Assembly: GCF_009371985.2 (NCBI RefSeq)
Contig: NZ_VIKU02000001.1
Location: 868,001-932,000, forward strand
From: Pelagihabitans pacificus
Lineage (GTDB): Bacteria; Bacteroidota; Bacteroidia; Flavobacteriales; Flavobacteriaceae
Direction: 5' to 3'
DNA length: 64,000 nucleotides
Shown: one piece after another, positions 50,772 through 62,668 of the stretch
Layout of the letters: each line of letters opens with the position of its first letter
Position numbering within the stretch: position 1 is the first letter of the stretch
Notes under the pieces: generated by a model
Databases searched by the model: none
Told to the model about the DNA's origin: nothing
What the model saw: only the letters and a program-made list of their open reading frames with translations
Made by a program: the position numbers and the translations under genes

Positions 50772-51080
50772 TCATTCATCCAATGTTAGCCCAACGATTT
50801 TTGATATCATAATGTCTTCACCCTCATCGTCAGTTTCCATTTCCGACTCAAAAGTAATTATGAAAGTTTTGCCCTGGTATTGCACATCCATAAGATTAAA
50901 TGATTTCCGAACTTCCTCAGCTATTTCATCAAATTCAAGAGAAAAGCCGTCGGCGTCCAAAAAGTAATAGGTTCCATCCTCTACTGTCTCGAAGGTGGCC
51001 TTCACAGTTTCTTTTTCCTGCGCTTTTGCTGTGGTAGTCATAATCATAAGTGCAAGGATGGTCAAAAGTTTTGTTTTCAT
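50772..51080 (-). CDS. Small secreted acidic hypothetical protein
   Basis: A 102-residue protein with a clean signal peptide (MKTKLLTILALMIMTTTAKAQ) and a mature part of about 80 residues rich in Asp and Glu. It has alternating hydrophobic beta-like stretches such as TYYFLDADGFSLEF and KTFIITFESEME. No family was recognised. It is likely periplasmic or extracellular. Codon use resembles the neighbours, which supports it as a real gene. The genes on both sides are decayed or very small. Confidence 0.7.
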   Translation of the reverse strand: MKTKLLTILALMIMTTTAKAQEKETVKATFETVEDGTYYFLDADGFSLEFDEIAEEVRKSFNLMDVQYQGKTFIITFESEMETDDEGEDIMISKIVGLTLDE

Positions 51081-51309: not shown

Positions 51310-51676
51310 CCGGCTTCCATACTCTGACATTCGCTGGTGTTACACCTACGGAAGCACTTGTATGCCTCAAGTCCAATACCTTTGTCCTCATCGTAGAACC
51401 CAGATTTGAGATAGGCCATAACCTTTTGGATTTTTTTTGGTATACCACCCTATCGATCAATCGTATCGAGAGCTCGTTGTTACACATGCCAATTATTGGT
51501 CGCATCTCCTTTTTAAATGCCCGAAACTTTTTAATTCCGCCCTTTTCGATTGCGTTGATAGCTACCATTAAACTGGCAGTTTTGGGTAGGCCTATAACGT
51601 GCATCATAAGACTCCCATTGGCTCGGGTAATAGGAACGTTCTGCGGAATCTTTGAGATAAACGATGCCACCACCAT
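51242..51676 (-). pseudogene. Possible degraded IS110-type transposase relic
   Basis: The minus-strand frame of 144 codons contains HVIGLPKTASLMVAINAIEK, GGIKKFRAF and WPISNLGSTMRTKVLDLRHT. These loosely resemble the C-terminal Transposase_20 region of IS110 elements (pattern G-I-G-x-K-T-A-x-L, then IS-K-x-G-x-x-x-x-R). The similarity is by eye only and low. The opposite strand is also open over most of this span, so either reading could be chance. No terminal repeats were found. Confidence 0.2.
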
Positions 51677-52034
51677 TCTTTTTGGGGTAATCCATCGATT
51701 CCAACCGGCAAGCGAAGTCAGCCAGATTTTAGCGTTGCGCGTCAGGCCGTATCCGACGTTTTTCGTGATGGCAGAATTTTGTTATCTGCAATTTGATCCG
51801 GCAAGTCTACCCAAGCCCTTGTCAAAGTACCCAAAGGCTATCGGATAGAAGACAGAATAGTCTTGAATTCATAGGCTTACCATTCACTTATGTAGGCTAC
51901 AATGCAGGAACTCCACTGAATTCAAATTCCTGCGAAATTTTAAAATTTTGTCGTCCCTATGAAGATATGTTCGCAAATGTGGTGACAAACTAGCCCCAGA
52001 TGTGTATCTATTAAGAACAAAAGTCATTAAGGTC
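51310..52034. other. Probably decayed sequence
   Basis: Over 700 bases in which a long frame is open on each strand at various points, but none starts well, matches a family or fits an operon. Apart from the weak transposase-like signal I see nothing definite. Confidence 0.35.
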
Positions 52035-53636: not shown

Positions 53637-54698
53637 CTATGGATTTAAAACTCCGAGTCCGGGCGAGGTGTTCGGGTATAATATGCCCTTTTCAAGCCTA
53701 AAAAGATTTCGGAAAGGGTCGCCTTGTAAGTCAAAGTGTCCATCCAAATCGGCATACTTTACGTTTGGCCGTGACAGCGAAAAGTGCAGCCCGGCCGAAA
53801 TTCCCAAGCGGCACTCGTCCAAACAACCGACCATTGATTCGATATTTCCTGCCTTTGCCACCGCGTTCATTTGAATGGCGCGCTGGATCCCGCCAACCTT
53901 CATCAATTTAATATTGATCATATCAACCCGCTCGTTCTTGGCAAGTCTAAAAATATCTTTTAAAGTTTTAAGGCTTTCATCCGCCATAATGGGGATATCT
54001 ATTTGTTCACGTATTTTTCCCATCCTGTAGTCTTTGCCGATTCTCGTGGGTTGTTCGAAAATCTCGATATTCAAGTCATGGGTATCCCTGTAAAATACCA
54101 AAGCATCCTGAATGGAATACCCTTGATTACCATCGAACCTTAAATGTATGGAAGGGTACTTTTCACGCAGCAAGACCATTTTTTCAATATCCTCGGAAAG
54201 GGATTTCCCTCCCTTGACCTTTAGAATGAAAAATCCCTGTTCTACATAATCTTTCGCCCGTTTCATGGTTTCGTCAATCGACATAATACCAATGGTAATA
54301 CTGGTTGGAATACTGGTTCGATAACCTCCCAGAAATTGATAAAGCGGAACGTCCATTTTTTTGCTGAGTAGGTCCATCAGGGCCATATCCACCATTGCCA
54401 AGGTCGAAGATTGCTGATTGAGAAGGCCGGCAACCTCCTCTATAAGCCGGGAAAACATATAGGGATTACTTCCCTTTAAAAATGGAATCACCGTGGCTTT
54501 AATCGCTTCTTCGACTTGATCCGGCGTTTCAAGGGTCACTACTTTGTCAGGAGCTGCACAGCCATAACCCACCAGCCCCGTATCGGTTTCAATCCTGAGA
54601 ACAAAGTTGACCACTTCAGCTACGGTCTCATAGGCTATGGTATAGGGCTCCACTAGTGGTAAATTCAGGCGCTCATATGAAACCATTCTTATTTTCAT
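53637..54698 (-). CDS. Enolase-superfamily dipeptide epimerase / N-acyl-glutamate racemase-like
   Basis: A 353-residue muconate-lactonizing-subgroup enzyme. All expected residues are seen: the KxK pair Lys160 and Lys162 (LKVKGG), metal ligands Asp189 (RFDGNQG), Glu215 (FEQPT) and Asp240 (ADES), the opposite base Lys264 (INIKLMK), and the DxD pair Asp317/Asp319 that marks L-Ala-D/L-Glu epimerases. The same family includes the marine enzyme DgcA, which racemises N-acetyl-D-glutamate. The start is ATG 54698, overlapping the creatininase-family stop by one base. It is the last gene of a five-gene operon. Confidence 0.82.
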   Translation of the reverse strand: MKIRMVSYERLNLPLVEPYTIAYETVAEVVNFVLRIETDTGLVGYGCAAPDKVVTLETPDQVEEAIKATVIPFLKGSNPYMFSRLIEEVAGLLNQQSSTLAMVDMALMDLLSKKMDVPLYQFLGGYRTSIPTSITIGIMSIDETMKRAKDYVEQGFFILKVKGGKSLSEDIEKMVLLREKYPSIHLRFDGNQGYSIQDALVFYRDTHDLNIEIFEQPTRIGKDYRMGKIREQIDIPIMADESLKTLKDIFRLAKNERVDMINIKLMKVGGIQRAIQMNAVAKAGNIESMVGCLDECRLGISAGLHFSLSRPNVKYADLDGHFDLQGDPFRNLFRLEKGILYPNTSPGLGVLNP

Positions 54699-55492
54699 CA
54701 ATAACGGTTCTGATAGAGGTCATCTAGAGGAGTATTGATAATAGACTCCACAAGATGAACCATATGGTGAATCATCAGTTCCCACATTTCATGTCCTTTT
54801 TCTGCCGTTGCCTTGGTCGCATCGCCCATAATACCGCTTTCAGAAAGTTTGCTGGTTCTCACATACCAATTCACGCTCCGTTCGTCGTCATAATCTAGAA
54901 ACTTGCTACCGAAACGAATGGTCTCGTTGACCGCCTTGTCCATTTGTACCATATCGGGTCTTATCGCCAAGGTAGTACTCGTCTCTATTTCCCCGGCATG
55001 TATGTCGTTTGGAGTATCTATCAGTTTGTAAAGATCAATATCACTGGTATCTCCCGTGTCTACACAAACAAAAATTTTACCATCCCTATTGATCATTTGT
55101 GCCGCATAATTTAAAGTAGGCGCATTATCACCATGGCCGTTGAGGATAATGATTTTCTTTATGCCGTTTTTTACCAAGCTCATCCCAAGATCATATACAA
55201 ATTTTGACAAGGCCTCATTAGTAACGCTTAAAGTGCCCTTAAAATCATCATGATGGTATGATACACCGAAGGGAATAGGAGGCAATACCAGCGGTTTTGG
55301 GTCGGAACAGGCCTCGGCTACCTTATAGGCCATGTACTTGGCATCAAAGTAATCAATATCGACAGGTAGGTGGGGACCGTGTTGTTCAATAGCGCCACAG
55401 GGCAAAATTACAGTATCTACTATTTTCAGATAGGACTCCAGTTCCGGCCAAGTCATTTCTTCCCAAAGGAAGGTTTTTTTAGTTGTTTTCAT
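54698..55492 (-). CDS. Creatininase family amidohydrolase
   Basis: A 264-residue protein with the creatininase metal-binding and active-site blocks in order: LPCGAIEQHGPHLPVDIDYF, HHDDFKGTLS, ILNGHGDNAP and DIHAGEIETS. Members hydrolyse amide bonds in creatinine, in a formamidopyrimidine of the deazaflavin pathway, or in a peptide (mycofactocin). Here the neighbours (dipeptide epimerase, DUF1611, PP-loop enzyme) suggest an amide or peptide bond of a glutamate-like compound. It overlaps the PP-loop gene by 4 bases and the epimerase by one, so it is part of a coupled operon. Confidence 0.88.
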   Translation of the reverse strand: MKTTKKTFLWEEMTWPELESYLKIVDTVILPCGAIEQHGPHLPVDIDYFDAKYMAYKVAEACSDPKPLVLPPIPFGVSYHHDDFKGTLSVTNEALSKFVYDLGMSLVKNGIKKIIILNGHGDNAPTLNYAAQMINRDGKIFVCVDTGDTSDIDLYKLIDTPNDIHAGEIETSTTLAIRPDMVQMDKAVNETIRFGSKFLDYDDERSVNWYVRTSKLSESGIMGDATKATAEKGHEMWELMIHHMVHLVESIINTPLDDLYQNRY

Positions 55493-57000
55493 ACGTTTTT
55501 ATCTAAGAAATGGGGCATCCCCCAATTGTCGTTTTTTATTGTAAATGCTTGCCATTTTCGGTCTTGAAATTGTACAGCCCCTTCACTGTATTTTGCCAGG
55601 ATCGCGAACAGCGGTCTTCGAATATAAGTTGGCAAATCGGCAAGCGTACTACGTTCCTTGTCAAAACGTAGCATCATAATTTCCTTGTGTTCTTTCGCCA
55701 GTTTCTTGGTATGGTCATTCGTTTCGATTATGGCTTTACTTAACAATAAATGATATAGTTGTGCGGCATCGCTCCCTAGCTGTTTCACACTTCGTTGCGC
55801 CAACGTTTTTAAGGCCTTTTGAATCTGGGAATCCGTATAGCCGCAACGCTTGGGGTCCTCATCCAAAGCGGACAACATTCCAACGATCCGGCGGCATTTT
55901 TCGCAGTTCCCGCAAGGGCGCATTTTACCGTTCTCCTCATGGGCTGCATGACAGGAAACCTGTAAGGTTTGAAGGTCTGGATAGCGTTTTACCAATATTT
56001 TTAGGATCAATAGCTCGGATAGGCTACGCAGCAGGGAATACTGGTACACATCCCACCCTTTTCTCCGATAGTATCGGGTCATGGCATTGTCAAAGTATTT
56101 GCTTTGATCATATAAACCATGGTAATGGGTGATACCCTGGTAGTTGCCTTTTATCGTGGTGTCGTATTCGTTGCCGATCAACACGTTTCCCAAACCTCTT
56201 TTGCGCACTACGGGCAGTACCCCAAAAAGAAAAACGGCCACCGTCCATAATCGAATGGGGTAGCTATCGGAGCGGATATTTTGAAAGTTCTCTTTGATAA
56301 AGGGCATTTGCTTCACCATCCAATTAAAGATCCGATCACTATTGCACCAAGGTTTCACGGTATTGGGCTCATAAGCCCTAAAATATTGATGTGCATTGAC
56401 AGCGGTAAACCAATGGCGACCACTTTCATTGATAAAAACAGGATGGGGTTCGCCAATTTCCTTGATAAGTCCGTAGGTTAACAAGCTATCCTTTCCCCCG
56501 CTACTTAAAATGGCGTAGGCGTTCCTATCGATTGCGGATTCGGATATAATCAATTCCAGGGAGGCGAATTGCGTGTTGACAAACACTATGTTTGCCGCGG
56601 TGTACCGTTCCAATTTTTCCCGTTGAATGGTATCGAAAGGAGCTTTCAAGAATTCATTTTTACTAAAAAATTTATGTACTAAAATTTCCCTGGAGGTATT
56701 TTCGGTCATGTCCCGAATGAAACGGCTATCTGTTTCGTCGAACCATCCGTCGAACAAAATGGTTTCAAAGAACAATCCATAGTTGAGGGCGACCTGTGCG
56801 ACCATCATCGATGCCAGATTGACGTCAGAAGCGTTTTTCGGATCGAAGTACCGATCATTGTAGCTATAAATGAGTTCGGAGCATACTTCACTATTATCCT
56901 TTTTTACGATGGTATAGGTAGCCTTTACACGCTTGGGCTCGACGACCAGCTGATGTACTTTTAAGGTCTTAAATACTACAAGGGACCGTATGGTTGTCAT
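55489..57000 (-). CDS. QueC-like PP-loop ATPase of unknown function
   Basis: A 503-residue protein. The PP-loop SSGGKDSL lies at residues 166-173 and would bind ATP to form an adenylate. A four-cysteine zinc site, Cys350, Cys363, Cys366 and Cys369 in PCGNCEKCRR, resembles that of QueC, the deazaguanine-forming enzyme, but with a longer first gap. The N-terminal 150 residues are not recognised and could be a substrate domain. Carboxylate adenylation followed by amide formation or epimerisation would fit the neighbours; the ATP-dependent MurL epimerase is one possible relative, not verified. It overlaps both neighbours by 4 bases. Confidence 0.65.
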   Translation of the reverse strand: MTTIRSLVVFKTLKVHQLVVEPKRVKATYTIVKKDNSEVCSELIYSYNDRYFDPKNASDVNLASMMVAQVALNYGLFFETILFDGWFDETDSRFIRDMTENTSREILVHKFFSKNEFLKAPFDTIQREKLERYTAANIVFVNTQFASLELIISESAIDRNAYAILSSGGKDSLLTYGLIKEIGEPHPVFINESGRHWFTAVNAHQYFRAYEPNTVKPWCNSDRIFNWMVKQMPFIKENFQNIRSDSYPIRLWTVAVFLFGVLPVVRKRGLGNVLIGNEYDTTIKGNYQGITHYHGLYDQSKYFDNAMTRYYRRKGWDVYQYSLLRSLSELLILKILVKRYPDLQTLQVSCHAAHEENGKMRPCGNCEKCRRIVGMLSALDEDPKRCGYTDSQIQKALKTLAQRSVKQLGSDAAQLYHLLLSKAIIETNDHTKKLAKEHKEIMMLRFDKERSTLADLPTYIRRPLFAILAKYSEGAVQFQDRKWQAFTIKNDNWGMPHFLDKNV

Positions 57001-58070
57001 TTTAGTTTGGTCTTTATCAATTTGACCAGTTCATCCGCACCATGTGCCAACACATCAAAAGCGGGCAGGCCGGTTTGTTTTGTAATGGCCTCACAGGCGG
57101 GAAGAATTTCTTCCGGGGCCATATCCTCATGGTTGATGGTAACGGCCAGGACTTTCTTGCCCGATATCAGTTCCAAGGCCCTGATCTGCAGTTTTAGCGG
57201 ATGTATTTTGTACCCTGGGAAACCGTCATATTCCTTTCGTTTCGGTGCATGTTGCAATAGGATATAATCGGGCCTACCGGCGGCCAAAATTTCAAATCCG
57301 CCCGGATATGCGGGGTTCATAAGACTTCCTTGTCCTTCGATCACGATGACATCCGGGTCCTCGTTTTCATAGGCACTGACCACGGCATGTTCGATTTCGC
57401 CGGATACAAAATCGTTGATACAGCTGTCCATGATCATACTGTATTTGGCCCCTTGCATCCATGCAGTCTGTCCAGTCCCGATCATTTCGGCATTCAAACG
57501 GTTTTTTCTAAGGGCGTGCACGAGGATCCAGGCAGTGGTCCGTTTTCCCAAAGCTGAATCCGTTCCCAGCACCGCTAGTTTCAGGCAATCTACTTTTTCT
57601 ATTTTTCCCGAGAAAAAATGTAGGTCGCTTCGATCAGGGGTTTTGCGAATATCCCTTAGTCGACAACCATGGGAGTTGGCCAGTTGTACCAATTCTTTGT
57701 CGCTGGTCAGAAAATCGTGCAATCCGCTATCTACATTCCAGCCTAGGGCCAAGGCCTTCTTAATTGCCTCTTTGGCAGATGATGGCAATCGTCCCCCGTC
57801 GGGAGCAAGACCAATAACCAAGCACTTGGGCAGGGATCCCTTATCGCGAAGTTCCCGCACCGCCGAGGGAATGTCCTTAAAAATAAGAATCCCATTTTTT
57901 TTATTGTCAAGTATCTTTCCGGCATCTTGTCCGGTATAGGTACTGTCAATAACGCCCACTATTTCGTACCGTTCGGTAAAACGGACTAGGCCATGTGCGG
58001 TTTTACCATTGGGGGTATTAAAGGCTCCTTCGCAATAAACGAGGGCTCTTCCATCGATTTTTTTCTTCAT
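56997..58070 (-). CDS. DUF1611 family protein (DgcN-like)
   Basis: A 357-residue protein with an N-terminal Rossmann-like part (to about residue 150) and a C-terminal P-loop domain with GTDSALGKRTT at 169-179, then EGQGSLMNPAYPGG and LLQHAPKRKEYDGFPG, hallmarks of DUF1611. A characterised member, DgcN, acetylates D-glutamate to N-acetyl-D-glutamate, and its partner DgcA is an enolase-superfamily racemase. A homologue of DgcA is encoded four genes on in this operon, so a D-glutamate or related role is a reasonable guess. It starts 2 bases after the PLP enzyme and overlaps the PP-loop gene by 4. Confidence 0.82.
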   Translation of the reverse strand: MKKKIDGRALVYCEGAFNTPNGKTAHGLVRFTERYEIVGVIDSTYTGQDAGKILDNKKNGILIFKDIPSAVRELRDKGSLPKCLVIGLAPDGGRLPSSAKEAIKKALALGWNVDSGLHDFLTSDKELVQLANSHGCRLRDIRKTPDRSDLHFFSGKIEKVDCLKLAVLGTDSALGKRTTAWILVHALRKNRLNAEMIGTGQTAWMQGAKYSMIMDSCINDFVSGEIEHAVVSAYENEDPDVIVIEGQGSLMNPAYPGGFEILAAGRPDYILLQHAPKRKEYDGFPGYKIHPLKLQIRALELISGKKVLAVTINHEDMAPEEILPACEAITKQTGLPAFDVLAHGADELVKLIKTKLK

Positions 58071-58072
58071 GT

Positions 58073-59134
58073 TTAGTTTTTTGCCGTGAGGATCGCCACA
58101 AAGCGATCTGGTTCAAAATTATACTGTCGGTCCAGTTCCAAAAGTCCGATGAGACCGGCGGTGGCGGCGGGCAATATGCGTAGCCCTTCTTTTTTTAGGA
58201 CAAAAGAAGCCATTTCCTTCATTTTTTTATCGCTGATATGAAAGGCTTCTCCCTTTGACTCACGAAGCGCGTAAAGCGCCTCGTCGCCGTCAAAGCTGTG
58301 CCAATTGATCAAGGGTTCATTGTATATGGTCTCCTTGATAGTAGCCGGGTCTAGGTCCTCACAGAGTTCCAAACCATTTTTAAACGAAATAATTATAGGA
58401 TTTTTACGCGTTGAGGAAGCGGCGATCATTTTCGGAATTCTCGATGTTTTACCTCGTTTATGCAAAGTAACAAAGCCGCGATAAATCCCGGCCAACAAGG
58501 TTCCGTTCGATACAGGGGTCGCACAGTATTTGGGTGCATCGCCCAAATCCTCCACGATTTCAGAAGCAATTTGGGAATAGGCGGTTATCTGCAACGGGGT
58601 GTTCGCCCCTCCAGGATTGGCATCGTACCAATCGTATTGTATGGCATAATCGCTGCTTGACCGTACCACATGTTCATAGCTGCCGTCAAGGCGTATGATT
58701 TCGGCATTGAGCCCTTCTATTTCCTTGATTCGTTCGGTACGGTAACTTTCAGGGATGAACACCTTACAATGGAGACCGGCCAGATTTGCGGCCAATGCAA
58801 CCGCAACCCCGTAGTTGCCGCAGGTTGCGAGGGAAATGGTATCGTAATCCCTCCGTAATGCATCATATACCTGGGCGAACGCAATGCGGTCTTTTTGGGT
58901 ACCCGTGGGGTTGTCGCCTTCGTATTTGATATAAAGTTGTCTGATGTCAAATTCGCGCTCCAAGGTTTTGGCGCGGGTTAGTCCCGTATCGCCGACCTCA
59001 ATATTGATAATGTCCTCAAAACTCTCTAAACGGTCTATGGACGATTTACTTTTATCCTTCACAAAATCACTGAGTTTCATCGTTTCCGATGACATTTTGA
59101 TTTCGACCGACTTTACACCATCCCTAAGGTTCAT
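58073..59134 (-). CDS. PLP-dependent fold-type II enzyme (threonine synthase-like)
   Basis: A 353-residue enzyme when begun at ATG 59134; ATGs at 59095 and 59080 are alternatives. IKYEGDNPTGTQKDRIA carries the PLP Schiff-base Lys, SLATCGNYGVAVALAANLAG matches the fold-II phosphate and nucleotide region, and ATPVSNGTLLAGIYRGF gives the PLP glycine loop. It is shorter than standard threonine synthases (about 430). Such enzymes do beta- or gamma-replacement or elimination on amino acids; cysteate synthase is a relative. It is the first gene of the five-gene operon, suggesting that an unusual amino acid is made or broken here. Confidence 0.78.
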   Translation of the reverse strand: MNLRDGVKSVEIKMSSETMKLSDFVKDKSKSSIDRLESFEDIINIEVGDTGLTRAKTLEREFDIRQLYIKYEGDNPTGTQKDRIAFAQVYDALRRDYDTISLATCGNYGVAVALAANLAGLHCKVFIPESYRTERIKEIEGLNAEIIRLDGSYEHVVRSSSDYAIQYDWYDANPGGANTPLQITAYSQIASEIVEDLGDAPKYCATPVSNGTLLAGIYRGFVTLHKRGKTSRIPKMIAASSTRKNPIIISFKNGLELCEDLDPATIKETIYNEPLINWHSFDGDEALYALRESKGEAFHISDKKMKEMASFVLKKEGLRILPAATAGLIGLLELDRQYNFEPDRFVAILTAKN

Positions 59135-59244: not shown

Positions 59245-59418
59245 CTATTCGTCCTCTGCTACTTCTTCCCGATTGCTAGAGGGTGAGGTATCTTCCAAAT
59301 CAGTTTCTTCGTTCAAATCCGACACATCAAGTTCGGGAAGAGTACTTAAGATATCTTCCTTGATTTCTTTTGGAAGCTCCTTATCGGTCTCGATTCTTTT
59401 AAAAATGTTCTTTTTCAT
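59245..59418 (-). CDS. Small acidic protein translationally coupled to the sigma factor
   Basis: Fifty-seven residues starting MKKNIFKRIETDKELPKEIK, with a strongly acidic C-terminal half rich in Glu, Asp and Ser. Its ATG overlaps the sigma factor stop by 4 bases (ATGA), strong evidence for translation. It has no membrane segment, so it is not a classical membrane anti-sigma factor, but it could be a small cytoplasmic partner. No family was recognised. Confidence 0.65.
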   Translation of the reverse strand: MKKNIFKRIETDKELPKEIKEDILSTLPELDVSDLNEETDLEDTSPSSNREEVAEDE

Positions 59419-60038
59419 CGGCTACTTTCATAAATTTTGACCACTTTTTTTTTCGCCCTATTAATGCGCATTTTAACGGCACTTTCGTTAAGACACAATA
59501 GTTCCTGGATTTCCTTTATGGGTACGTCATCCTGATAGCGTAGTAGTAACAAGGCCTTATCTTCCGGAGGGAGTTTCAACAAAGCCTCTGAAAACTTCTC
59601 TTCGTCCAAGCCATTCAACTCCTCCAGTTCAATAACGTCCCCACTATCTCCATAGTCTTTTATGGAAGATTCCTTGAATGTGTTTTGCCATCTCTTTTTA
59701 TCCCGGGTCACATAATTCGTGCAATGATTATATACGATAACATACAGCCATGTGGAGAAGGACGCCTTGACCTTGTTGTAATGCTGCAACTTTGTAAATA
59801 CTTTGAGAAAAATATCCTGAACGAGGTCTTTGGCCTCATTCTGATTTTTGGTGAAACCGATACATTTGTTATACACTTTATTGGAGTAGCGATCATACAA
59901 AACCCCAAAAAGCCGGCTATCCTTCTTTTCCACGATCTTGTCTATTAACTCATCGTCGGTCCAGTTTTTGGCATCTCGATAATCACCTCCGGGACTATCG
60001 CTGACAAGGCTTAAAATAAGAGCTTTTTTTAAATGCAT
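59415..60038 (-). CDS. ECF-type RNA polymerase sigma factor
   Basis: A 207-residue sigma-70 family protein of the ECF type. Region 2 is seen as LFGVLYDRYSNKVYNKCIGF and DLVQDIFLKVFTKLQHY plus FSTWLYVIVYNHCTNYV. Region 4 is PPEDKALLLLRYQDDVPIKE followed by CLNESAVKMRINRAKKKV, the DNA-binding helix-turn-helix. The N-terminal 25 residues are an extra basic and polar tail. The gene next downstream is a 57-residue acidic protein overlapping it by 4 bases. No membrane anti-sigma gene is adjacent. Confidence 0.9.
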   Translation of the reverse strand: MHLKKALILSLVSDSPGGDYRDAKNWTDDELIDKIVEKKDSRLFGVLYDRYSNKVYNKCIGFTKNQNEAKDLVQDIFLKVFTKLQHYNKVKASFSTWLYVIVYNHCTNYVTRDKKRWQNTFKESSIKDYGDSGDVIELEELNGLDEEKFSEALLKLPPEDKALLLLRYQDDVPIKEIQELLCLNESAVKMRINRAKKKVVKIYESSR

Positions 60039-61141: not shown

Positions 61142-62668
61142 ATGGAAATAAAGGAAATTGAAAATATAGAGCTTCAGTTTTTGACACTGGATGATTATCA
61201 AGACCTCAAAAAGGCAATGATCGCTGCTTATTCGAACATGAACGGAGCCTATTGGAAAGAAGAACATATAAAATCATTGATCGAAAAGTTTCCGGAGGGA
61301 CAGGTCGTCATTAAGATCAATGGTCAATTGGCCGGGGTTGCCTTATCCATCATAGTAGACTACGAAACCTTTGATGACCAACACACCTACGAGCAAATTA
61401 CCGGTAAGTACTCTTTTGATACCCATGATAACAACGGCGATGTGCTTTACGGGATCGAAGTGTTTATAAAACCACAGTTTCGAGGGCTTCGATTGGGACG
61501 CAGATTGTATGATTATCGCAAGGAACTCTGTGAGAAGTTGAATCTTAAAAGTATTCTTTTTGGAGGGCGTATGCCCAATTACCACAGGTATGCCGACACG
61601 TTTACTCCAAAGGAATACATCGAAAAGGTGAAGCGGAAGGAGATCCAAGACCCAGTCCTCAACTTTCAAATCAGTAATGATTTTCACCCTGCCAAGGTTA
61701 TGAAAGGGTACCTTCCAGGAGATAATGCATCAAATGATTTTGCCATTTTGATGGAGTGGGATAATATCTATTACCACAAGCCTACCAAAAAGGCGGCTAC
61801 CAAGAAGAAGGTAATCCGGTTGGGATTGATACAATGGCAGATGCGCCCGTACAAGGACCTCGAGGCCCTATTGCAACAGGCCGAATACTTCATTGATGCC
61901 GTATCTGGATACCGCTCGGATTTTGCCCTATTTCCCGAATTTTTCGATGCGCCTTTAATGGCCAAGGACAACCATTTGTCTACCCCGGATGCCATTCGTG
62001 AATTGGCGAAGCATACGGAGGCCATTGTCCAGAAATTCTCGGAATTTTCCATTTCCTACAATATAAATATCATAACGGGCAGTATGCCAGAGGTGGTCGA
62101 TGGGCGCCTGTACAATGTTGGTTATTTGTGTCGAAGGGATGGTAGTATGGAACGATACGAAAAACTGCACGTGACCCCGGACGAAGCCAAAGTTTGGGGT
62201 ATGCAAGGTGGAAATCAACTACAGGCTTTCGATACCGATTGCGGCAAAATAGGTGTACTCATCTGCTACGATAGTGAATTTCCCGAACTGAGCCGGATTT
62301 TGGCTGATGAGGGTATGGATATTTTGTTTATTCCATTTTTGACCGATACTCAGAATGGCTATTCCAGGGTGCGAAACTGTGCACAGGCGCGCGCCATAGA
62401 AAATGAATGCTATGTGGCTATAGCCGGTAGTGTGGGCAACTTGCCCAACGTCCAAAATATGGACATCCAATTTGCCCAATCCATGGTATTTACTCCCTGT
62501 GATTTTTCGTTTCCCACGAATGGCATAAAGGCAGAGGCGACACCCAATACCGAAATGATTTTGATTGCGGATGTGGATATCGACTTACTACGTGAGCTCA
62601 ATCAATTTGGGGCCGTTCGCAATTTAAAAGATAGAAGAAAAGACCTTTTTGAACTCAGAAAAAAGTAA
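61142..62668 (+). CDS. GNAT acetyltransferase-nitrilase (carbon-nitrogen hydrolase) fusion
   Basis: A 508-residue two-domain protein. Residues 1-210 are a GNAT domain with the acetyl-CoA loop region QFRGLRLGRRLYDYR at about 112-126. Residues 225-505 are a carbon-nitrogen hydrolase domain with the catalytic triad Glu266 (LFPEFFDAP), Lys341 (YEKLHVTPDE) and Cys375 (LICYDSEFPE). Such fusions occur in many bacteria and probably act on amides or amines, hydrolysing one and acetylating another; substrates are not known. The gene is monocistronic here. Confidence 0.9.
   Translation: MEIKEIENIELQFLTLDDYQDLKKAMIAAYSNMNGAYWKEEHIKSLIEKFPEGQVVIKINGQLAGVALSIIVDYETFDDQHTYEQITGKYSFDTHDNNGDVLYGIEVFIKPQFRGLRLGRRLYDYRKELCEKLNLKSILFGGRMPNYHRYADTFTPKEYIEKVKRKEIQDPVLNFQISNDFHPAKVMKGYLPGDNASNDFAILMEWDNIYYHKPTKKAATKKKVIRLGLIQWQMRPYKDLEALLQQAEYFIDAVSGYRSDFALFPEFFDAPLMAKDNHLSTPDAIRELAKHTEAIVQKFSEFSISYNINIITGSMPEVVDGRLYNVGYLCRRDGSMERYEKLHVTPDEAKVWGMQGGNQLQAFDTDCGKIGVLICYDSEFPELSRILADEGMDILFIPFLTDTQNGYSRVRNCAQARAIENECYVAIAGSVGNLPNVQNMDIQFAQSMVFTPCDFSFPTNGIKAEATPNTEMILIADVDIDLLRELNQFGAVRNLKDRRKDLFELRKK

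Follow-up and report, generated by a model that had tools for sequence, protein, structure and literature searches.

The window analysed here, a stretch of 64,000 nucleotides from contig NZ_VIKU02000001.1 of the flavobacterium Pelagihabitans pacificus, carries at positions 53637-59134 a block of five closely packed minus-strand genes coding for a fold-type II pyridoxal phosphate (PLP) enzyme, a DUF1611 protein, a PP-loop protein, a creatininase-family amidohydrolase and an enolase-superfamily enzyme resembling dipeptide epimerases (genes 1-5; Table 1). A first-pass annotation of the sequence had reported that all five lie on one strand with gaps or (negative) overlaps of 2, -4, -4 and -1 bases, and this is borne out by the coordinates of the open reading frames (ORFs). 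The enzyme families it named agree with the Pfam and NCBIfam matches, and its PP-loop call for gene 3, to which a Pfam search assigned no family, proved right from the motif and a fold model. ATG start codons were used for genes 1 and 5, the gene caller having chosen a GTG 72 bases upstream for the PLP gene and a TTG one codon earlier for the epimerase.

Table 1. Coordinates of the five genes, their motifs and neighbouring features in the window
Feature	Position	Strand	Assignment	Basis
Gene 1	58073..59134	-	fold-type II PLP enzyme, threonine-synthase-like	Pfam PALP 1.2e-52; NCBIfam PRK06381
Gene 2	56997..58070	-	DUF1611 protein, DgcN-like, P-loop GTDSALGKRTT	Pfam DUF1611 2.1e-63 and DUF1611_N
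Gene 3	55489..57000	-	QueC-fold PP-loop protein, 503 residues, distantly MurL-like	alignment, model, fold search
PP-loop motif of gene 3	56485..56505	-	SSGGKDS	aligned rows
Cys/His motif of gene 3	55894..55953	-	putative zinc site	conservation across aligned rows
Gene 4	54698..55492	-	creatininase-family amidohydrolase	Pfam Creatininase 7.7e-70
Gene 5	53637..54698	-	enolase-superfamily dipeptide-epimerase-like enzyme	Pfam MR_MLE_C 1.1e-40, MR_MLE_N 9.5e-12
Glu25 codon of gene 5	54627..54629	-	aligned with Arg24 of 1jpm	alignment
GNAT and carbon-nitrogen hydrolase fusion	61142..62668	+		Pfam
Gene directly upstream of the operon	59415..60038	-	like extracytoplasmic-function-type sigma factors	recognised by eye
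Small acidic ORF, 57 residues	59245..59418	-		
102-residue protein	50772..51080	-	probably secreted	
Apparent gene remnant	51434..51703	-	related to a Beta-lactamase2-family serine hydrolase	41% identity over 90 residues

Conservation of the block

The PP-loop protein served as query in a pattern scan that covered 84,980 species genomes and detects close relatives only. It yielded 20 loci, the titles of which name Maribacter, Aquimarina, Kriegella, Eudoraea, Muriicola, Muricauda, Flavobacteriaceae, Lewinellaceae and Draconibacterium, together with Melioribacteraceae, Bacteroidetes, Calditrichaeota and SAR324. With the matches from a genome set added, 37 loci were mapped, representing 35 genomes besides that of the window (L015 and L055 come from the same genome, as do L008 and L037). 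The genes for the PLP, DUF1611 and PP-loop proteins form a contiguous trio in 30 of these 35 genomes and the complete set of five is present, with its order kept, in 24. Because the gene order is kept in other genomes the arrangement is not due to chance, and the linkage across relatives, on which the first-pass annotation had let its proposal stand or fall, was not lost. Contig ends interrupt two of the loci without a contiguous trio (L051 and L058). Four genes are inserted between the DUF1611 and PP-loop genes in L008 (that is, L037); the DUF1611 gene lies about 8 kb upstream in L011, where the upstream gene clusters are the same four; and in L012 these four clusters again lie upstream, with neither a PLP nor a DUF1611 gene within 8 kb.

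The creatininase gene adjoins the PP-loop gene in 31 of 34 testable loci (L012 is cut), and the two make up a single ORF of 774-848 residues in eight loci (L020, L034, L035, L036, L038, L048, L053 and L054). An epimerase orthologue is present in 29 of 33 testable loci (L010 and L012 are cut), and in L049 and L052 the opposite strand carries an enolase-superfamily gene that is less closely related (34% and 32% identity, respectively). The usual picture is of a core consisting of the PLP, DUF1611 and PP-loop enzymes, with the creatininase and the dipeptide epimerase as frequent partners. A DUF1611 orthologue was found for each of the 19 operon entries searched (18 separate genomes, G345 and G398 being the same) and in none of 10 same-family relatives lacking the operon, which were taken from the top of the list of genomes giving no match.

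Distribution and horizontal transfer

The distribution of the block is patchy. Within the window's phylum 11 of 395 genomes, that of the window among them, carry the PP-loop gene. G397, from which the Calditrichaeota locus L014 comes, belongs to a phylum in which 8 of 82 genomes carry it, and G399, the source of the SAR324 locus L017, to one in which 1 of 52 does; for the class of G051 the figure is 6 of 294, all six being already among the 11. Pairwise distance matrices for the five proteins, calculated for 19 loci with all five genes after L003, L004, L015 and L037 had been dropped as duplicates or near-duplicates, agree with one another (r 0.76-0.95, values reached by none of 2000 permutations), mean identity per protein being 57-68%. 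Congruent matrices are, however, expected under vertical descent too, which tells against reading them as a sign of joint transfer, and the identity of the cassette was therefore compared with that of RpoB in 10 operon genomes. Between G397 and G399 the cassette is on average 78% identical and RpoB 51%, and between G399 and G000 the figures are 66% and 48%. Conversely, G345 has RpoB 80% identical to that of G051, G116 and G326 and a cassette that is only 56-58% identical, while its comparison with G000 gives 59% for RpoB and 66% for the cassette. Since the cassette identities depart in this way from those of RpoB, it follows that the cassette has been transferred horizontally between distant lineages among the genomes sampled. 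A tblastn search against plasmids gave no match.

The five gene products

The PLP enzyme scores 401.1 bits against the equivalog model PRK06381, above the cut-off of 266, and 92.8 bits against TIGR00260, under the cut-off of 167.1. A separate threonine synthase gene (ThrC) in the window genome scores 283.8 bits against TIGR00260, and a ThrC gene exceeds the cut-off of that model in 9 of the 10 operon genomes. The best matches of the predicted structure of gene 1 (mean predicted local distance difference test score, pLDDT, 73.2, compared with 51-57 for the other four models) are threonine synthases, the nearest solved structures, with which it has the fold and the PLP lysine in common. In gene 1, however, Ala177 and Gln182 stand where the Thermus enzyme (1uim) has Ser155 and Arg160, which we take to be phosphate contacts. 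With these residues replaced and ThrC encoded separately, O-phosphohomoserine is a doubtful substrate, and a housekeeping threonine synthase role for gene 1 was rejected because of the separate ThrC.

The DUF1611 protein scores 150 bits against the DgcN model, which has a cut-off of 480. DUF1611 paralogues adjoin epimerase-family genes in L032 and L033. In L031 (4913-7731) a further DUF1611 paralogue adjoins an ornithine-racemase-like gene (405/480 bits) and a gene of the VanX-like dipeptidase family. Gene 4 scores 235.4 bits against the Pfam Creatininase model, for which the gathering score is 31.3, and its similarity to creatininase and to the mycofactocin protein MftE is at the level of the family; it falls under both NCBIfam cut-offs (140.5 bits against a cut-off of 172 for MftE, TIGR03964) and differs also in being fused to the PP-loop protein in some operon genomes.

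The PP-loop protein was aligned in 38 rows, the window included and two genomes counted twice. S166, S167, G168, G169, K170 and S172 are invariant in all 38, and D171 is variable (Glu in L034), so that the motif becomes SSGGK[D/E]S. C350, H351, H354, C363, C366 and C369 are likewise invariant in every row and probably form a zinc site, judging from their conservation. The only fold matches in the PDB at E <=0.001 for the AlphaFold2 model (mean pLDDT 80.7) are the QatB-QatC chain (E 5.9e-6) and QueC (E 1.5e-4), with which gene 3 has both the PP-loop motif and a Cys-rich motif in common. On the other hand, no QueC model is among the NCBIfam and Pfam matches of the PP-loop family (E <=1), and no queuosine gene is among the operon neighbours typed. 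A search of PDB sequences with the protein found no match, and one with its profile found a single match at E 0.04, which was regarded as due to chance.

A further lead concerns MurL, which was compared through its NCBIfam model NF041275 alone. Gene 3 scores 20 bits (cut-off 700) and is the sole match to this model in the window genome at E <=1; the model matches 14 of 16 members of the PP-loop family at that threshold, the best at 6.6e-5, and in 82 further genomes its single match at E <=0.01 is a PP-loop gene of the gene 3 family, compared with 0 of 14 control genomes. MurL converts adenosine triphosphate (ATP) to adenosine monophosphate (AMP), and adenylation of the alpha-carboxylate has been proposed (accessible text of PMC8788868); in the parts of PMC5808125 and PMC8788868 consulted its mechanism is called not clear and known conserved domains are said to be lacking. 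The same conversion of ATP to AMP would be expected of gene 3, and MurL may be PP-loop kin, the sequence similarity being a lead rather than a demonstration.

The epimerase has as its nearest solved structure 1jpm, the Bacillus subtilis L-Ala-D/L-Glu epimerase YkfB (E 5.2e-63). In an alignment of 28 rows (the window included, L015/L055 counted twice and fragments of less than 85% coverage excluded) the catalytic lysines, metal ligands and DLD (DxD) motif (K163, K265, D190, E216, D241, D318 and D320) are invariant throughout, in keeping with the earlier statement that all catalytic residues of a dipeptide epimerase are present. K163 and K265 correspond to K162 and K268 of YkfB, the catalytic roles of which are given in the available portion of PMC5808125. 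Gene 5 nevertheless scores 237 bits against the NCBIfam L-Ala-D/L-Glu epimerase equivalog (cut-off 500) and 129 bits against the DgcA model (cut-off 400), and its operon partners differ from those of YkfB. Asp295 is likewise invariant. There is a departure from YkfB at Arg24, which presumably contacts the glutamate side chain in the B. subtilis enzyme and which is replaced by Glu (Glu25 in gene 5) in 27 of the 28 rows and by Gln in the remaining one. Among the next solved relatives this position is Arg in 3rit and Gly in 3jva and 2p88, and in the distant relatives of L032, L033, L049 and L052 it is Thr, Gly, Ala and Ala, respectively. Because the position carries Glu, an amine-bearing or neutral substrate appears likelier than glutamate.

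A possible pathway and its alternatives

The interpretation tentatively preferred here is that the block is a horizontally transferred cassette which acts on an amine-bearing amino acid via N-acyl or dipeptide intermediates, by carboxylate adenylation and stereo-inversion, and either synthesises or inverts an unusual amide. The PLP enzyme would make (or break down) a non-standard amino acid, the amino group of which would be acylated by the DUF1611 protein, and the PP-loop enzyme would adenylate the carboxylate so that an amide or dipeptide could be formed with an amine; alternatively, the activated carboxylate might undergo inversion in the way proposed for MurL. Inversion at the alpha carbon of the N-acyl compound or dipeptide would then fall to the enolase-superfamily enzyme, and hydrolysis of the amide to the creatininase, in some loci fused to the PP-loop enzyme. 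Overall, ATP would be spent either on interconverting the L and D enantiomers of an amino acid that bears an amine or on building a small amide with a D-residue. The scheme draws on the conserved gene order and the fusions, the agreement of the distance matrices, the departure of cassette identities from RpoB, the restriction of the DUF1611 orthologue to operon genomes, the DUF1611 paralogues beside epimerase- and racemase-like genes, the QueC/QatC fold and MurL similarity of gene 3, and the invariant catalytic residues of the epimerase. Order, families, motifs, co-inheritance, transfer, fusion and the altered epimerase pocket are observed, whereas the individual reactions and their sequence, the substrate and the direction are inferred.

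The first-pass annotation had envisaged one co-inherited pathway outside known routes, and this accords with the linkage and with a literature search, covering few subscription papers, in which no description of the five-enzyme route was found; the five-gene block is not described in the accessible parts of PMC5808125 and PMC2922099. Its suggestion that the pathway adenylates, cleaves and epimerises a glutamate-containing amide stands, by family, for the classes of chemistry only: the substrates glutamate, D-glutamate and N-acetyl-glutamate are not supported, because the Arg24 position is Glu and the DgcN and DgcA scores are far under their cut-offs.

Several observations weigh against the preferred interpretation. 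DgcN function is assigned to proteins above 480 bits, a score that gene 2 does not approach. The fold matches of gene 3 are loose superpositions (TM-score by query 0.38 for QatB-QatC and 0.30 for QueC, root-mean-square deviation 9.4 and 8.4). Its similarity to MurL is weak (E 2e-4), covers about 76 residues and lies outside the PP-loop motif, and the MurL model also matched 5 of the 14 control genomes at E <=1 and reached E 0.01 in only 1 of 8 PP-loop genomes of one phylum. Furthermore, the creatininase is missing beside the trio in 3 of the testable loci (L049, L050 and L052) and the epimerase orthologue in 4 (L016, L034, L049 and L052), and the last two steps are therefore not obligatory.

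A catabolic role is the next to be considered and is possible, if on the unlikely side: a D-amino acid would be taken up, N-acylated by the DUF1611 protein with an acyl group activated by the PP-loop enzyme, inverted, deacylated by the creatininase and, in its L-form, deaminated by the PLP enzyme. Such a scheme would parallel the DgcN-DgcA route, in which a DUF1611 protein is likewise paired with an enolase-superfamily racemase and D-glutamate is taken to N-acetyl-L-glutamate or L-glutamate (available sections of PMC11747546 and PMC10845958), and the DUF1611-epimerase pairs of L032 and L033 stand without a PP-loop gene. The operon, however, adds the PLP, PP-loop and creatininase enzymes to that pairing, and both its members lie well under the family cut-offs. 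Its epimerase pocket is not glutamate-like, with Glu25 in place of the Arg expected for glutamate, and the mapped loci share no recurrent transporter or peptidase gene.

An unlikely variant is an ATP-paid, one-way inversion of chirality of a new kind. The QueC-fold enzyme would adenylate an N-acyl or dipeptide intermediate with an amine at its carboxylate, and the creatininase, fused to that enzyme in some loci, would release the product. MurL would then belong among the same PP-loop enzymes.

It is rather improbable that the cassette makes a compatible solute, in which case its product would be a small amide with a D-residue that builds up in response to salt or ionic stress. The idea is suggested by the genes immediately upstream, which were typed at eight loci and in six concern ion transport or stress (a Na/H exchanger, a universal stress protein, an amino-acid-permease-family transporter, a Na/Ca exchanger, TerC and an MscS channel), and by the sigma-factor-like gene that precedes the operon in both the window and L021. 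The upstream genes were, however, selected post hoc, after their first residues had been read, the other two code for a phospholipase-D-family protein and a DUF5698 protein, and in other lineages the neighbours are unrelated, such as a glycoside hydrolase family 9 (GH9) cellulase in L013.

Nearest to what the first-pass annotation had leaned towards is the supply or salvage of D-glutamate for peptidoglycan, through a MurL-like or L-Ala-D/L-Glu epimerase function, and this must be judged very doubtful. In its favour are the similarity of the PP-loop protein to the MurL model, a NamZ exo-muramidase gene that is third downstream in the Maribacter loci L002-L004 (one cluster, typed with Pfam on L002), and the state of glutamate racemase (MurI) in three operon genomes, G183 and G397 lacking any match at E 1e-10 and G399 having one only below the cut-off. 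Nevertheless, MurI exceeds the cut-off in 7 of 10 operon genomes, including that of the window (213.4 bits, cut-off 146.65), where gene 3, in this respect too unlike MurL, is accompanied by a racemase and where replacement of MurI by the operon was rejected for that reason; the change from Arg24 to Glu and scores far under the cut-offs of the MurL and glutamate-epimerase models point the same way.

That five unrelated housekeeping genes are adjacent by accident is highly improbable: four of the five proteins do come from large known families, but the linkage data (conserved order, fusion and patchy joint transfer) refute it, and the unrelated roles which the first-pass annotation had named as fatal to its proposal are unlikely because the window genome has separate ThrC and MurI genes.

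Neighbouring genes

The fusion of a GNAT domain to a carbon-nitrogen hydrolase was found in 13 of 18 operon genomes searched and lies near the operon in six of these 13 (G000, G395, G396, G401, G345 and G116); as a dedicated member of the operon it was rejected, since 10 of 14 genomes that lack the operon have it too. An AguB-like carbon-nitrogen hydrolase gene (197/410 bits) directly follows the epimerase gene in one genome (L035, 2771-3595). The sigma-factor-like gene of the window is overlapped by the small acidic ORF, and a similar gene (cluster 12), which precedes the operon in L021, recurs nearby in L018 and L020. Relatives of the 102-residue protein occur near the operon in L004, L056 and L021, and the Beta-lactamase2-family serine hydrolase to which the apparent remnant is related lies beside the operon in Maribacter. 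The four-gene block of L037 (8001-15913) codes for a PPDK_N protein, two Beta-lactamase2-family proteins and a HEAT/TLC transporter-like protein, and its clusters recur in L011 and L012, where they lie upstream of the PP-loop gene, and in L002, L003 and, in part, L005, where they lie upstream of the operon.

Implications

A five-enzyme pathway that is well conserved, patchily distributed and jointly transferred, and to which no product has been assigned, is a well-defined target, for which specific assays can be devised from the linkage, the PP-loop/creatininase fusions and the altered epimerase pocket. The lead on MurL could help to explain the working of a known ATP-dependent cell-wall epimerase. 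If the one-way inversion were to prove correct, it would mean that a hitherto unrecognised D-amino-acid metabolite is common to distant bacterial phyla.

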